In this document: in pieces, positions 3,792 through 50,548 of the stretch
Position numbering within the stretch: position 1 is the first letter of the stretch
Layout of the letters: every line of letters begins with the position of its first letter
Source of the DNA: Chloroflexota bacterium
Lineage (GTDB): Bacteria; Chloroflexota; Anaerolineae; Aggregatilineales; J027
NCBI GenBank assembly: GCA_024434115.1
Contig: QMIT01000001.1
Span: 372,001-436,000 of the forward strand
Length of the DNA stretch: 64,000 nt
Reading direction: 5' to 3'
Made by a program: the position numbers and the translations under genes
The notes under the pieces: generated by a model
The model's input: the letters and a program-made list of their open reading frames with translations, nothing else
Database searches by the model: none
Told to the model about the DNA's origin: nothing

Positions 3792-4340
3792 ATGAGTCAG
3801 CTAACACCTGATGAAGTGCTGTTGGGCTTGTTAGCAGTTCAACCGAGTCATGGCTATCAATTATTAGAGCATTTTCGTGACCCGGCTCGACTGGGGCAGG
3901 TCTGGAATTTAAGCACCAGCCAGTTGTATGCTGTCCTAAAGCGCCTTGAACAGCAGGGCCTGATTGTGGGGAGGGCGATTGAGGTCATTGATGCGCCGAC
4001 GCGCACCGAATATACGCTTACGACAAAGGGAAAGAATCGTTTTGAAACATGGCTGCACAGCCCATCTCCTTCGTCGAGTGTCCGGCGTGTGCGGGTCGAA
4101 TTTCTGAGCCGACTATATGTTGCCCGTTTGCAGAATAGGCCAACAGCCGCACTGGTGGGGTATCAAAAAAACTCGTGTATAACAACCCATCGTCATTTGC
4201 TGACTCAACGTGACCAAACAGCGCCGGGGATTGGCTATTTGGCAGTGGAATTGCAGATTGCCCAACTCGGTGCCATTTTGAAGTGGATTGACCGCTGCGA
4301 ACTTGTTCCATTCAATGAGGAGGAATTAGATGAAACGTAG
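3792..4340 (+). CDS. PadR family transcriptional regulator
   Basis: The first 85 residues form a winged helix-turn-helix of PadR type: the LLGLLAVQPSHGYQL start, then STSQLYAVLKRLEQQGLI and the wing with TEYTLTTKGK. A C-terminal helical dimerisation part follows (182 aa in total, normal for PadR). The 3' end overlaps the modA start by 11 bp, so the two genes are translationally coupled. This suggests the regulator controls molybdate uptake, a task usually done by ModE. The effector is unknown. Confidence 0.85.
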   Translation: MSQLTPDEVLLGLLAVQPSHGYQLLEHFRDPARLGQVWNLSTSQLYAVLKRLEQQGLIVGRAIEVIDAPTRTEYTLTTKGKNRFETWLHSPSPSSSVRRVRVEFLSRLYVARLQNRPTAALVGYQKNSCITTHRHLLTQRDQTAPGIGYLAVELQIAQLGAILKWIDRCELVPFNEEELDET

Positions 4341-5586
4341 GGTGTTGTCGGCTATTTTGGTTATTGCCTTATCGCCACTTTTTGTTCCACACCATGCCCA
4401 TGCTCAAGATACAACCCTGACCGTCCTAGCGGCTGCTTCACTAACGGATGCCTTTGAGGAAATCGCCGGGACATTTGAGGCTGTCAATCCGGGAGTGAAC
4501 GTCGAATTTCAATTTGGGGCGTCGTCCGACCTAGCCGCACAGTTGGCCGAGGGTGCGCCTGCCGATATTTTTGCGAGTGCCAATAATCGGCAAATGCAGG
4601 TGGCAAAGGATGCGGGTCGGATTGAAGGCAAAACGTACACGTTCGTCAAAAATCGTTTGGTAGTGATTGTACCTGCTGATAACCCCGCTGGAATTGAATC
4701 CTTGCATGATTTGGCGAATGATGGGGTGCTGCTGGTAGTGGTAGCGGAAGGCGCTCCGGTACGCGATTACACCAATGCGATGGTAGATAAATTGGTCAAT
4801 GTGTCGGGCTATGGAGAGGAGTTTAAGAGTGCCTTTTTCAGCAATGTCGTTTCTGAAGAGGACACCGTGCGGCAGGTTACGGCAAAGGTCGCATTAGGGG
4901 AAGCCGACGCGGGTTTGGTCTATGTTTCAGATGTCACGCCGGATATCGCCGAAGACGTCAAAATGATAAGTGTGCCGGATGCCTACAATACACTGGCGAC
5001 CTACCCAATTGGCATCACCAATGATTCAGCCAACAAGGAATTGGCCCAAGCGTTTATTGATTACGTGCTGTCCGATGCGGGGCAGGATACCTTAGTGGCC
5101 TGGAACTTTATCTCGGTGCGGATTCCTGAAATACCGAATACCGTTAGCCTACCTACCGATGGCCTACTGCATGTGGGGGGGCAGGTTTATAACCCGCTCG
5201 TCTTGACTATGGATAATCTACGCGCTTATCCCTCACAAACCGCTGAAGTGACGTATCTAAGCGGGGAGGATACTGTTGATGCAAGTTTCACAGGCGTGAT
5301 GTTGTGGGATATTTTGAGCAGCGCACAGGTCAATTTTAATGCCGACGTAGGCAATGATAAATTAGGCTTCTATATCGTGGCGACAGGCAGCAATGGCTTT
5401 CAAGCTGTCATTGCATGGGGTGAGATTGATCCTGAATTTGGCAATCAACCTATCTTGGTCGCCTATGAAAAAGATGGAACAGCTTTGGAGGCTGCCCAGT
5501 TGGTGGTTCCCGGTGATGGTCGGGGTGGCCGCTATGTGAGTGGTCTTGTTAGCTTGGAAGTACGTGACGCCCCTTCTGTAGAATAG
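4330..5586 (+). CDS. modA: Molybdate ABC transporter substrate-binding protein with extra C-terminal domain
   Basis: A signal peptide ends near AHAQ (residues 23-26). Residues 28 to about 255 form a ModA periplasmic binding domain with the diagnostic LTVLAAASLTDAFEEIA start and GASSDLAAQL, the oxyanion-binding region. At 418 aa it is about 160 aa longer than usual ModA. The extra part (about 268-418) has a beta-rich sequence including LHVGGQVYNPLVLTMDNL, resembling the molybdopterin-binding fold of sulfite-oxidase-like proteins. It lacks the cysteine that ligates Mo in the catalytic enzymes. The ModA call is firm; the nature of the added domain is inference. modB follows after 6 bp. Confidence 0.85.
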   Translation: MKRRVLSAILVIALSPLFVPHHAHAQDTTLTVLAAASLTDAFEEIAGTFEAVNPGVNVEFQFGASSDLAAQLAEGAPADIFASANNRQMQVAKDAGRIEGKTYTFVKNRLVVIVPADNPAGIESLHDLANDGVLLVVVAEGAPVRDYTNAMVDKLVNVSGYGEEFKSAFFSNVVSEEDTVRQVTAKVALGEADAGLVYVSDVTPDIAEDVKMISVPDAYNTLATYPIGITNDSANKELAQAFIDYVLSDAGQDTLVAWNFISVRIPEIPNTVSLPTDGLLHVGGQVYNPLVLTMDNLRAYPSQTAEVTYLSGEDTVDASFTGVMLWDILSSAQVNFNADVGNDKLGFYIVATGSNGFQAVIAWGEIDPEFGNQPILVAYEKDGTALEAAQLVVPGDGRGGRYVSGLVSLEVRDAPSVE

Positions 5587-11498: not shown

Positions 11499-11531
11499 GA
11501 GGGGTATCCGCAGGGATGCCCCTCATTTTTT
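11499..11531 (+). terminator. Rho-independent terminator of glnA
   Basis: GAGGGGTATCC (11499-11509) pairs with GGATGCCCCTC (11514-11524) through 11 bp (one G-U) with a GCAG loop, followed by ATTTTTT. It isolates glnA from the following tRNA gene. Confidence 0.9.
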
Positions 11532-11581: not shown

Positions 11582-11653
11582 GGGTCATATGCTCGTTGGA
11601 TGGGCGGCGGACTCTAAACCCGCTAGAAGCGAGTTCGATTCTCGCATGACCCA
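11582..11653 (+). tRNA. tRNA with anticodon CUA (UAG-reading, putative amber suppressor)
   Basis: The cloverleaf can be drawn completely. The acceptor is GGGTCAT/ATGACCC (7 perfect bp) with discriminator A11653. The D stem is GCTC/GGGC with G18-G19 in the loop. The anticodon stem is GCGGA/CCCGC (A31-C39 mismatch) with loop CTCTAAA. A 5-nt variable loop, T stem GCGAG/CTCGC and T loop TTCGATT follow. Anticodon CTA is at 11614-11616, with canonical U33 and A37. CCA is not encoded. The core is odd: A at position 8, G14 and U15 replace the near-universal U8, A14 and R15. The acceptor (GGGTC, A73) and loop resemble tRNA-Lys(CUU) with U36 changed to A. It is not tRNA-Pyl, since the variable loop, T loop and D loop are standard. 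Charging identity is unknown. Confidence 0.75.
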
Positions 11654-11666
11654 TTGTGGAGGAAAT

Positions 11667-11729
11667 ATGTTGTAGGTTTACTATTCCAAAACGAGAGACC
11701 CCCCAAACTGTATCTCCCTCTCTACCTGA
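11667..11729 (+). CDS. Leader ORF with in-frame UAG at codon 3
   Basis: GGAGGA (11658-11663) precedes ATG 11667. Codon 2 is TTG and codon 3 is TAG (11673-11675). If UAG is read, translation continues in frame to TGA at 11727-11729, a 20-residue peptide. Without readthrough it is a two-codon minigene (Met-Leu-stop). The Shine-Dalgarno begins only five bases after the tRNA 3' end, so tRNA processing would release an mRNA starting right at this leader. The readthrough part spans the left arm of the hairpin at 11708-11762. This fits a regulatory leader whose full translation requires the CUA tRNA. Function is inferred from arrangement only. Confidence 0.55.
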
Positions 11730-11762
11730 ACTGATGTTTATGCAAATCAAGAGGAGATACAG
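11708..11762 (+). promoter_or_regulatory. Hairpin sequestering the ribosome binding site of the 140-aa gene
   Basis: CTGTATCTCC (11708-11717) pairs perfectly with GGAGATACAG (11753-11762), and TCT/AGA adds 3 bp after a bulged C. The right arm contains the Shine-Dalgarno (GAGGAG, 11751-11756) of the gene starting at 11765. The left arm lies inside the leader ORF, 33 nt beyond its UAG. A ribosome stopping at the UAG would leave the stem intact; one reading through to 11729 would open it. Confidence 0.6.
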
Positions 11763-11764
11763 AC

Positions 11765-12187
11765 ATGAATACCCTTCCAAAAGCGATCACCGCTCAAATA
11801 ACAGTTGACCTTTCTACCTACCAGAGTATCCGCAGCCACTGGAGTGATTTGATGCGCTCCACACGCAGGCAAGAATTACGGGCTTCGCATCATCTGCTTT
11901 ACCTAGCGCTGTTAGGTAAGGATTGGCGCAAGGCTTTTCGCTGTCTTTCTAATTCAAACAAACTCAATAATGGCGCGTTTCCGGGATGGGGACTTTTTTG
12001 CGCCACAGCCGTACTGCATATGGTAGCGTGTGAGGAGGAAGTGCTGGCTCCATTTGATGGCCTTGTTACGCCAGCCATGCTTCAGCAGGTTCGGCAATTG
12101 ATCCCGGTTCCGAATGCCTACAAACTCAAACCGGAACAATTTGTGGCAGGGGAGTTTCCCTTTGAGGCGTATGTTGTGCCCGCTTGA
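11765..12187 (+). CDS. Unrecognised 140-aa protein of the CUA-tRNA cassette
   Basis: A compact soluble protein without signal peptide, membrane segment or cysteine metal site. Recognisable stretches are a basic SHWSDLMRSTRRQ segment near residues 24-36, SHHLLYLALLGKDWRKAF at 41-58, a GAFPGWGLF turn, and an acidic C-terminal half ending in FEAYVVPA. I cannot assign a family. It starts at ATG 11765 with GAGGAG 9-14 nt upstream, and that site is buried in the leader hairpin. The PTH2-like gene follows after 38 bp and is probably in the same transcript, which suggests a role connected with the CUA tRNA. Confidence 0.75.
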   Translation: MNTLPKAITAQITVDLSTYQSIRSHWSDLMRSTRRQELRASHHLLYLALLGKDWRKAFRCLSNSNKLNNGAFPGWGLFCATAVLHMVACEEEVLAPFDGLVTPAMLQQVRQLIPVPNAYKLKPEQFVAGEFPFEAYVVPA

Positions 12188-12225: not shown

Positions 12226-12633
12226 ATGCCAGAATCCTAGACGGTTGCACAGGTATATGCCTATGTTCTTGTCCGAACCGACATTGCCCTTGAACAGCAA
12301 ATTGTGCAGGTCGGACATGCGTGTTTGGAAGCAGGACGTAGATTTGACTGGCCGGATACCCCCTGTAATCTTGTTGTCCTCGGTGTTGCCAACAGTGGTG
12401 AATTACAGGCCACGATTGAACGGGTGCAACTGGCTGAAGTGCGTATCGCGCTGTTTTATGAACCAGACCATCAGCTTGGGCTAACGGCTGCCTGTACAGA
12501 ACCCATCTCCGGCGCATTTAGGCGACTCTTTCGGCGCTTTCCTCTTTGGAATGTGGATGGGGCAACCTCAGCACGCGGGCCACCACACCGCGTTTTCCTG
12601 AAGTCGCGGGTTAATGAACGTATGTTCTATTGA
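12226..12633 (+). CDS. Peptidyl-tRNA hydrolase 2-like protein with in-frame UAG at codon 5
   Basis: A strong ribosome site (AGGAGG, 12215-12220) precedes ATG 12226. Codons run ATG CCA GAA TCC TAG, then stay open to TGA at 12631-12633 (135 residues counting UAG). The part after UAG follows the PTH2 fold: VYAYVLVRTD strand, QQIVQVGHACLEAG helix (PTH2 family: KGKxAAQVAHA), NLVVLGV strand, a helix, RIALFYEPD and GLTAACTEPI, ending RRFPLW. PTH2 enzymes release tRNA from stalled peptidyl-tRNA. No ATG, GTG or TTG lies in frame between the UAG and GTG 12304, and starting at 12304 would remove the first strand and RTD motif. Intact protein therefore needs UAG readthrough, which the tRNA 585 bp upstream could provide. 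The alternative is a recent nonsense mutation. Confidence 0.7.
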
Positions 12634-48214: not shown

Positions 48215-50548
48215 ATGACTAACCTGTTCCGGCGTACCCTCCATGCGGCGTTACTTTTGACGCTGGTACTGATGGCAGGGTTGCCTACTTATCAAACCCG
48301 CACCAGCTTTGCGCAAGATGATGGCTCTAATGAAGTCGTCGTGGCGGGGTCACGTTATGTGCAAGACCTGCTGCAACGATTGGCGGACAACTACAATGCG
48401 GCGGCAGAAAACGATACAACTGTCCAATTTGATGCGCAGGGTAATGCGGACGGCTTTACACGGTTGTGCGGTGGAGTTGTGGATGCAGTCATGGCGACTG
48501 AACCGATTTCCGATGAACAACTGCTGGTCTGCGATACCAATGCAGTGGAATTTGTGGAATTGGTGCTGGCCTATGAAGCGTTGGTACTTGTCCCCAGCGC
48601 TGGTGCCCCAGCGACTTGCATTGACCAATCCAGCCTGCCAAGCGTACTCGGTGAGGGTGGAGCAGCCCAACTCAATTGGTCAGTTATCAACCCAACCGCA
48701 ACCCCGGGTGACATTACCCTGTATGGCCCAAATCCTGAAAGCCAAACAGTTGTTGGTTTCCTTGCTTCGCTGCTGCCAGACGCGCCGCGCACGGATTATA
48801 CTCAATATGAATCCCCTCAAGCGGTTGTGGATATACTCAAAGACCCAGCCAGCATGAGTGTGGCGTTTATGACGTTTGCTGAATGGTCAGGGCTTGAAGA
48901 TCAAGGCGGTTTGACCCCCTTGCAAGTCAGTACCGATCAATTGCTAACCTGTCTTTCGCCGGATGAGGGCACGATTGCTGCTGGGACGTATCCCTTCCGC
49001 CGCCAATTGATGCTGTATGTCAATGTGAGTGCCTTCGACAAAGCCAATTTTGTTGAATTTGCTAAATACGCGGTGGGTGCGGATGGTCTGCCAGTGGTGG
49101 ACGATGAATTTAACTTCACCGTGCCTGTCCAAGCAGTGTTGGATCGCGGCCTCAACAATATTACTGGCCCGATTGTAGGGCGTACATTTACCCGCCCCAA
49201 TTCCCCAGTGACGCTGAATACTGCTGCTGAGGGTTCGGTGACCGTCAACGGTACGGGTTTGGCATCAACCGCCACTAAACCCATTTATGATTCCTTTACG
49301 GGAACCTATGCCAATGTTGACCTGACGGTTGGCGCGATGACCAATGACCAAAGTTGGGGCGCATTCTGCGCCGGGACAGCCTCGGTGATTCAAGTCAATC
49401 GTCCTCCGACAGAAGCCGAATTAGCCACCTGCACCGAAAACAACATTGACCCCTATACCATCAATTTTGGTGCTCAGGCAGTTGTGCTGGTTGTGAAGGC
49501 CGATTCTGATCTGCCCGTGTGCCTCGATTACAGCCAATTGTCGGCTATGCTGGTACAAAATGTGCTTGATCCACAAGCTGGCACATTGAATCCTGAAGCC
49601 ACTGCCGAAGCAACAGAGGTCGTCCCAACGGAAGTGCCTACGGAAGCCGTCACCGAAATTCCGACGGCAGAACCCACCGAAGTCCCTACGGAAGCACCTG
49701 CTGACACCACGCCTGAAGCGACAGAAGCTCCCTTTGTGCCGCTTGACCCCGCCAAACTGCAAGGGCCTGCTCGTTGGAACGAAATCAATCCCGAATGGCC
49801 TGATCGCCAACTATTGGTGCTGGCTCCCAGCTTAGGTGCGATTGAAACCGACTTGATTTTGGCAACGGTGACTGATGGTCAGCAAGTGCTGCGTCGCACC
49901 GATGCCCCCATTGTTCAGATGTCGCCTGTCAACACCCCCAACGCATCCGGGGCGACGGATATTCCCGATCTGCAATATCGTGTTGGCGCTACCGCACATT
50001 TTGATGGCGCGATTACTTATGCCCTGTGGACGGCTTTCCAATCCGACCCCGGCAAAGATGGGGTACGGGTCGTCCAGATTGACGCTGGTAATGGGTGTAT
50101 TGAGCCAACCGCCGAGACTATTCTTGATGGCAGCTATCCGTTCTCCTATAGCTCGATGCTGGTCTTCTCGAAGGCAGCGTTGAATGATGATGTGGTGGCC
50201 GCGCTCTTATGGCAGGCCTTCAACAGTGATGCGCTGATTCAGATTGAAACCCTCGGCCTCGTTGGGTTTGATCGGGCTGCACTGGAAGCCGAACGCGAAG
50301 GCATCTTCACGATGATTGAGGAAGCTCGTCGTGCCGCAGCAGAAGCCGATCCTGATGCCGAATCCGGCGATGCTACCCCCGAAGCAACTGAGGAAGTGAC
50401 TGAAACGCCTACTGAAACCCCAACCGAAGAACCTACGGAAACGGCAACTGAGACCGCAACCGAAGTTCCCACTGAGATTCCAACCGAGGTGCCAACTGAG
50501 TTACCAACGGCAGAACCTACTGAAGCCCCAACTCAGGCGGCTCAATAG
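48215..50548 (+). CDS. Secreted PstS-like protein with two binding modules and Thr/Pro/Glu linkers
   Basis: The start is ATG 48215, with GGAGG at 48205-48209; the frame opens earlier at 48158. The signal peptide ends near TSFAQ. The first module (about 35-300) resembles phosphate-binding PstS-like proteins (VVVAGSRYVQDLLQRLADNY, TRLCGGVVDAVMATEPIS). A linker of TE-VPTE type units is followed by a second partial module (LQGPARWNEINPEWPDRQLLVLAPS) that matches the same part of the first. The C-terminal 60 residues are again Thr/Pro/Glu repeats. No Pst transporter genes are adjacent, so it may bind anions for sensing or surface functions. Confidence 0.75.
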   Translation: MTNLFRRTLHAALLLTLVLMAGLPTYQTRTSFAQDDGSNEVVVAGSRYVQDLLQRLADNYNAAAENDTTVQFDAQGNADGFTRLCGGVVDAVMATEPISDEQLLVCDTNAVEFVELVLAYEALVLVPSAGAPATCIDQSSLPSVLGEGGAAQLNWSVINPTATPGDITLYGPNPESQTVVGFLASLLPDAPRTDYTQYESPQAVVDILKDPASMSVAFMTFAEWSGLEDQGGLTPLQVSTDQLLTCLSPDEGTIAAGTYPFRRQLMLYVNVSAFDKANFVEFAKYAVGADGLPVVDDEFNFTVPVQAVLDRGLNNITGPIVGRTFTRPNSPVTLNTAAEGSVTVNGTGLASTATKPIYDSFTGTYANVDLTVGAMTNDQSWGAFCAGTASVIQVNRPPTEAELATCTENNIDPYTINFGAQAVVLVVKADSDLPVCLDYSQLSAMLVQNVLDPQAGTLNPEATAEATEVVPTEVPTEAVTEIPTAEPTEVPTEAPADTTPEATEAPFVPLDPAKLQGPARWNEINPEWPDRQLLVLAPSLGAIETDLILATVTDGQQVLRRTDAPIVQMSPVNTPNASGATDIPDLQYRVGATAHFDGAITYALWTAFQSDPGKDGVRVVQIDAGNGCIEPTAETILDGSYPFSYSSMLVFSKAALNDDVVAALLWQAFNSDALIQIETLGLVGFDRAALEAEREGIFTMIEEARRAAAEADPDAESGDATPEATEEVTETPTETPTEEPTETATETATEVPTEIPTEVPTELPTAEPTEAPTQAAQ
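50383..50539 (+). repeat. Degenerate Thr/Pro/Glu-coding repeat
   Basis: About 50 codons encode units such as TETPTEEPTE and TEVPTEIPTE, with variable synonymous codons; a similar shorter run lies at about 49600-49735 in the same gene. It probably forms an extended wall-spanning tail. Confidence 0.75.

Follow-up and report, generated by a model that had tools for sequence, protein, structure and literature searches.

The locus examined here raises the question of why a short leader with its own Shine-Dalgarno (SD) sequence should meet a stop at its third codon, stay open beyond it, and be followed by an RNA stem over the SD of the next gene. It lies in a window of 64,000 nucleotides from a Chloroflexota bacterium. 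The initial annotation had proposed that readthrough of the leader UAG gates translation of the next gene, which encodes a 140-aa protein, and that the Met-Leu-stop minigene connects peptidyl-tRNA drop-off to the peptidyl-tRNA hydrolase 2 (PTH2)-like protein encoded downstream. Our check confirmed exactly the positions that this annotation had given for the leader and its UAG, for the frame open as far as 11729 and for the 10-bp stem over GAGGAG (table 1), and the RNA folding that it called for returned the stem in both the MFE and the centroid fold. The pairing of 11708-11717 with 11753-11762 is perfect and includes part of the SD GAGGAG (11751-11756) of the 140-aa ORF, whose ATG is at 11765; as a single fold the stem is only mildly unusual (z -1.5). 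Absent from the annotation were the suppressor tRNA next to the leader, the further UAG inside the PTH2-like gene, a conserved Pro-Pro in the leader and the distribution of the system in phages. We conclude that the cassette is very probably a suppressor-tRNA-gated operon, that is, a translational attenuator. Comparison of sequences supports the leader, the stem, the second gate, the linkage to the tRNA, coding selection after the UAG, the match between gate and anticodon, and the predicted masking and release of the SD.

Table 1. Features of the proposed suppressor-tRNA cassette, in window positions
Feature	Position	Strand	Evidence
Terminator-like hairpin after glnA, setting glnA apart from the cassette	11499..11524	+	terminator scan
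tRNA, anticodon CUA (reads UAG), no encoded CCA	11582..11653	+	ARAGORN; Rfam tRNA 42 bits; precedes the leader also in L005-L009
Leader SD, GGAGGA	11658..11663	+	sequence
Leader ORF, ATG TTG UAG ... UGA (ATG 11667-11669, TTG 11670-11672, TAG 11673-11675, then open to TGA 11727-11729)	11667..11729	+	readthrough peptide ML(UAG)VYYSKTRDPPNCISLST
Gate UAG, leader codon 3	11673..11675	+	sequence; kept in all Chloroflexota homologues
Leader Pro-Pro codons, proposed arrest site	11700..11705	+	diversity of Pro-Pro codon pairs (arrest putative)
5' arm of SD-masking stem, CTGTATCTCC	11708..11717	+	fold; covariation
3' arm of stem, GGAGATACAG, overlapping SD GAGGAG	11753..11762	+	sequence; fold; covariation
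140-aa all-helical protein	11765..12187	+	alignment; AlphaFold pLDDT 85; family precedes or is fused to PTH2-like in phages
PTH2-like gene (peptidyl-tRNA hydrolase 2 fold), in-frame UAG at codon 5	12226..12633	+	model matches PTH2 structures (3erj, E 1.2e-5)
Second gate UAG, codon 5 of PTH2-like gene	12238..12240	+	sequence; early UAG in many phage homologues

The leader ATG begins 13 nt downstream of the tRNA-CUA gene. A scan found no intrinsic transcription terminator between this tRNA and the leader and its gene, the nearest being that of glnA, and tRNA and leader are probably on one transcript. The tRNA forms a cloverleaf with an anticodon fitting the gated stop, as a functional suppressor tRNA should, and would presumably be aminoacylated and decode UAG. 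Comparison with the host tRNAs gave no clear parent from which to read its amino acid identity.

The cassette sits in a Chloroflexota-type genome and occurs in 4/5 genomes of its genus. Downstream genes kept without the leader or the stem, the pattern that the initial annotation had named as contradicting it, were not seen in Chloroflexota: the leaderless genus member, G107, is without the entire cassette. The order tRNA-CUA, ML-UAG leader, stem, 140-aa gene and PTH2-like gene with its early UAG is common to L002/L005 and the other Chloroflexota homologues, these being L005 (CFX10), L006 (MAG_03), L007 (NC_groundwater_1614), L008 (Anaerolineae MAG) and L009 (Thermoflexales MAG). Leader, stem and UAG thus accompany a CUA tRNA in every one of them, in agreement with the suggested gating by readthrough. 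The leader is spelled ATG-TTG-TAG in five genomes and ATG-CTA-TAG, with a synonymous Leu codon, in L008; at the sequence level, the leader codons show the marks of selection. Among five distinct Chloroflexota stem arms, 100% of cells are paired, against 30-66% in slid controls, and two pairs have changed on both sides, compensatory changes of the kind that the annotation had proposed to look for. Given this pairing, we take the stem to be under selection. Furthermore, when codons 4-13, which follow the UAG, are compared between genomes, the leader frame has 28 synonymous against 42 nonsynonymous differences, and the other frames give 5/66 and 7/66; these codons behave as translated sequence.

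The phage homologues extend this picture. A query with a phage PTH2-like protein recovered the jumbo phages ME3, Arash, GAP32/CBB, the BF-group and XbC2 phages, two uncultured megaphages and Tenacibaculum phage pT24. All these jumbo-phage PTH2-like genes open ATG-(1 to 3 codons, ATG not counted)-UAG, and the phage PTH2 relatives, with their early stop, offer no alternative start; XacN1 and CM1 have a fused protein of two domains, in which the UAG is codon 3. Scanning viral contigs with PTH2 alone returned 80 loci, many with the same gate plus a CUA tRNA within 3 kb. In a second phage group PTH2 is ungated and, as in the window, a UAG leader stands before the preceding 140-aa-like gene. The PTH2-based searches are blind to stops and tRNAs, and reduction at 85% identity left 69 records, mostly phages, with the window and its homologues included. 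At least 63 of these are gated by an early stop (60 UAG, 2 UGA, 1 UAA), and six are without a scored gate, among them L109, which appears gated by eye; 32 internal gates, all UAG, were scored automatically and the remainder assigned by inspection. A plasmid search gave no match.

The anticodon fits the gate stop in all 53 gated records that show a stop-suppressor tRNA (permutation p 2e-5). In L102 the leader reads ML-UGA-VYLQRPP and there are two UCA tRNAs, with no CUA or UUA among 49; L092 has ML-UGA-VKSQSP, one UCA tRNA and no CUA; and L103 has MIKVTDN-UAA-VPSLHDPP, one UUA tRNA and neither CUA nor UCA. As few as two or three independent events may underlie these cases. In the ungated RaK2 and Hallingskeid, no CUA tRNA is among the tRNAs found. 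Against the main reading, no suppressor tRNA was seen in the sequence examined of ten gated records, including LR756502 and L004. The PTH2-like gene of the former (L056, an uncultured phage) starts ATG AAA AAT TAG, and none of its 44 tRNAs examined is CUA. In the phage contig L004 neither ARAGORN nor Rfam finds a tRNA; just before its UAG leader is a tRNA-like stretch (4275-4378) with a 7-bp acceptor stem, a CCA end and no recognised anticodon arm. A tRNA of phage Arash (L048:4301-4375) is annotated as tRNA-Phe and called CUA by ARAGORN, L103 has a second tRNA-like sequence with a long insert (2197-2359) near its UUA suppressor, and the UAG-gated contig L108 has a tRNA with an apparent four-base anticodon CUAA.

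The model of the PTH2-like protein (pLDDT 90) matches archaeal and human PTH2 structures (3erj, 1q7s, 1xty; best E 1.2e-5, TM 0.75). The PTH2 profile (PF01981) is matched by 22 of the 45 family members, the window protein alone staying below the gathering score. The family keeps R-x-D and Q-x-x-H; the usual Gly-Lys of the PTH2 motif is not kept, so PTH2-like activity is uncertain. The model of the 140-aa protein found no match in the PDB, and the protein weakly matches a Yersinia phage protein. L127 and L128 encode the 140-aa family and the PTH2-like domain as one fused protein, and an N-terminal domain is also present on PTH2 in XacN1, CM1, L136 and L138, which suggests that the two proteins work together.

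For the cassette we infer readthrough, tRNA charging, Pro-Pro arrest and a purpose. With too little charged CUA tRNA, ribosomes would terminate at the leader UAG, the stem would stay closed and the 140-aa gene would go untranslated; the PTH2-like ORF would halt at its own UAG too. Where charged tRNA-CUA outcompetes RF1, the ribosome would go on as far as Pro-Pro or the stop after it, slow down and cover the 5' arm. The SD would then be freed and the 140-aa protein made, the PTH2-like protein being made through readthrough of its own UAG.

ermC and cat are controlled by translational attenuation through leader peptides, and TnaC is arrested at a Pro-stop. These systems likewise combine a short leader ORF, a stem-masked SD that is released once a ribosome sits on the 5' arm. 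Here, however, the signal would be the decoding of a stop by a dedicated suppressor tRNA and not a drug or an amino acid, and the stop precedes the arrest site. RF2 (prfB) is autoregulated through an early in-frame UGA; both systems have an early in-frame stop gating a translation factor, with an outcome set by release-factor competition. In prfB, though, the bypass is a frameshift and the product the release factor, whereas the cassette would use in-frame suppression to make a PTH2 relative. The attenuator half is of a known kind, while a dedicated suppressor tRNA acting at a stop codon as the signal is one that we neither knew of nor found. A literature search, covering open-licence papers, returned no description of the system, which would make a stop codon a regulated switch without genome recoding, in a Chloroflexota bacterium and dozens of phages.

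The purpose would be feedback or timing. UAG terminates 17 of the 46 long ORFs of the window and RF1 is present in the genome. An efficient suppressor would be costly where UAG is a common stop, which speaks against our main reading. For the same reasons one expects a suppressor of low strength or under tight limits, as fits a feedback role. We favour homeostasis, if tentatively: a PTH2 relative made in proportion to suppression may limit the suppressor or clean up after it, with a logic resembling that of RF2 autoregulation. Nearly as likely is a timing or leak-proof gate, an AND gate in which the stops silence the operon until the tRNA is present and charged (in phages, late enough) and neither PTH2 nor the 140-aa protein acts on the suppressor. 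A synthetic suppressor-tRNA feed-forward loop works in this way in E. coli, a gene with an early stop staying silent there until its suppressor tRNA has been produced, although it is engineered and has no leader, stem or arrest peptide (PMC7969014).

Stenotrophomonas phage Summit also bears on this question. Its authors wrote that the purpose of the phage's suppressor tRNA 'remains unknown'. Adjoining this tRNA we found AAGGAG-AAGACC-ATG-AAG-UAG-GTC-TAC-AAG-CCT-CCA-TAA, i.e. an MK(UAG)VYKPP-stop leader (L163:1442-1468 = 49442-49468), 88 nt before CDS_069, the gene of a small non-PTH2 protein. PTH2 was looked for in Summit and not found; therefore, the leader goes with suppressor tRNAs and not with PTH2 alone. 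A leader before an unrelated gene, like the second leaders behind PTH2 in L083, L120 and L131, speaks for a timing gate. A small-protein family similar to CDS_069 follows these second leaders. On the other hand, the same few targets recur, namely a translation-related fold and a single family of helical proteins, and this speaks for a functional link with suppression. We regard it as evenly balanced whether the cassettes form a widespread phage and bacterial system in which a dedicated suppressor tRNA, with no general recoding role, serves as a trans-acting switch for an operon made up of an arrest-peptide leader, the helical protein and the PTH2-like enzyme, and this enzyme feeds back on the suppressor's tRNA. 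If so, the orphan suppressor tRNAs of large phages would be explained as a class.

How a ribosome past the gate might free the SD is suggested by the leader peptides. After the stop two classes can be told apart, one with Pro-Pro (RPP, GPP, KPP, RDPP) and one with Asn/Asp-Ser-Ser. Pro-Pro is kept in 22 leaders through 13 different codon pairs, and so is under selection as peptide; the same diversity rules out that these codons are a mere anti-SD CCUCC. Reportedly, C-terminal Pro-Pro hinders termination (Hayes 2002, as cited in PMC2998420), and the conserved Pro-Pro probably holds the ribosome in place over the 5' arm of the stem. In a folding model of 32 leaders, with the ribosome footprint as an assumption, the SD is unpaired with a mean probability of 0.14 in the free RNA; a ribosome at the gate leaves this at 0.15, and one at the arrest site raises it to 0.54 (shuffled controls 0.40, 0.34 and 0.45; p 2e-8 at the gate, 8e-8 at the arrest site). 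In the window itself the probability is 0.03 both in the free RNA and with a ribosome at the gate. Blocking at Pro-Pro gives 0.14 and at the terminal UGA 0.39, and the weak release at Pro-Pro counts against the main reading. The leader ORF has its own SD, as an attenuator requires, and predicted structure together with covariation indicates that the downstream SD is masked without a leader ribosome or with one at the first stop; its release by a ribosome at the arrest site is a property of the model of these 32 leaders. Alternatively, Pro-Pro might be incidental and the ribosome, once past the gate, would simply run to a stop near the next start. In L007 (ATGA overlap), L008 (TAACCATG) and L109 the readthrough frame does run as far as the next start codon or close to it. 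Nevertheless, most phage leaders place their stop 56-73 nt before the next start, and the retention of Pro-Pro with many codon pairs makes such coupling without arrest unlikely. The leaders of L121 (2524), L123 (2563) and L126 (2226) have two UAG codons before the RPP motif.

The second proposal of the initial annotation, a sensor in which the PTH2-like gene answers to peptidyl-tRNA released at ATG-Leu-UAG, fares worse. In E. coli deficient in Pth, minigenes of two codons are toxic, lambda bar being an example (PMC8012679); they share with the cassette a very short ORF and the theme of peptidyl-tRNA hydrolase. In our leaders, however, it is the sequence after the stop that is conserved, while the codons before it differ in number and identity (Met-Met, Met-Lys, Met-Thr-Glu-Gln, and seven codons in L103). 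As a defined minigene is not the conserved element, we consider a drop-off sensor very improbable. The gating of the downstream SD by UAG readthrough, by contrast, withstood comparison: the frame after the UAG evolves like coding sequence, the phage gate stop co-varies with the anticodon, and SD accessibility shifts as predicted.

CUA tRNAs are a hallmark of recoded phages, and their presence here might suggest general recoding as in genetic code 15, with the gate UAGs ordinary sense codons; in that code, as proposed here, a phage-encoded CUA tRNA decodes UAG. In the host genome PylRS is absent (PylS_Cterm 20.8 bits against a 178-bit cut-off), which rules out pyrrolysine decoding and, together with RF1 and the stop usage given above, indicates that UAG is not reassigned. 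None of the gated records tested is recoded as a whole and the gate stop still terminates many of their ORFs; reading it as sense brings no distinctive gain in ORF coverage. Moreover, the gate stops are confined to the starts of genes and leaders (gates at codons 2-9 only), and 54 of 57 PTH2 domains have no UAG. With UAG still an ordinary terminator, reassignment as in code 15 is contradicted and hardly credible. Decay of a dying operon through nonsense mutations, with which the annotation of phage homologues from after the UAG would agree, is practically negligible given a gate kept across Chloroflexota and many phages, conserved proteins and the unbroken anticodon match.

Annotators of the phage homologues began the gene after the UAG. 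The class is easy to overlook, since gene callers start genes past the gate or miss the leaders. Direct reporter tests are feasible, since a gate stop can be exchanged along with its matching anticodon, and the gates offer specific, testable targets for phage suppressor tRNAs, which are frequently described with no target, namely XacN1 ORF364 and the leader before Summit CDS_069. The authors of the XacN1 genome reported two CUA tRNAs with no identifiable target, for which ORF364 is a candidate. It is annotated from a downstream start, and its frame reaches upstream to ATG AAG TAG (L050:946-966).
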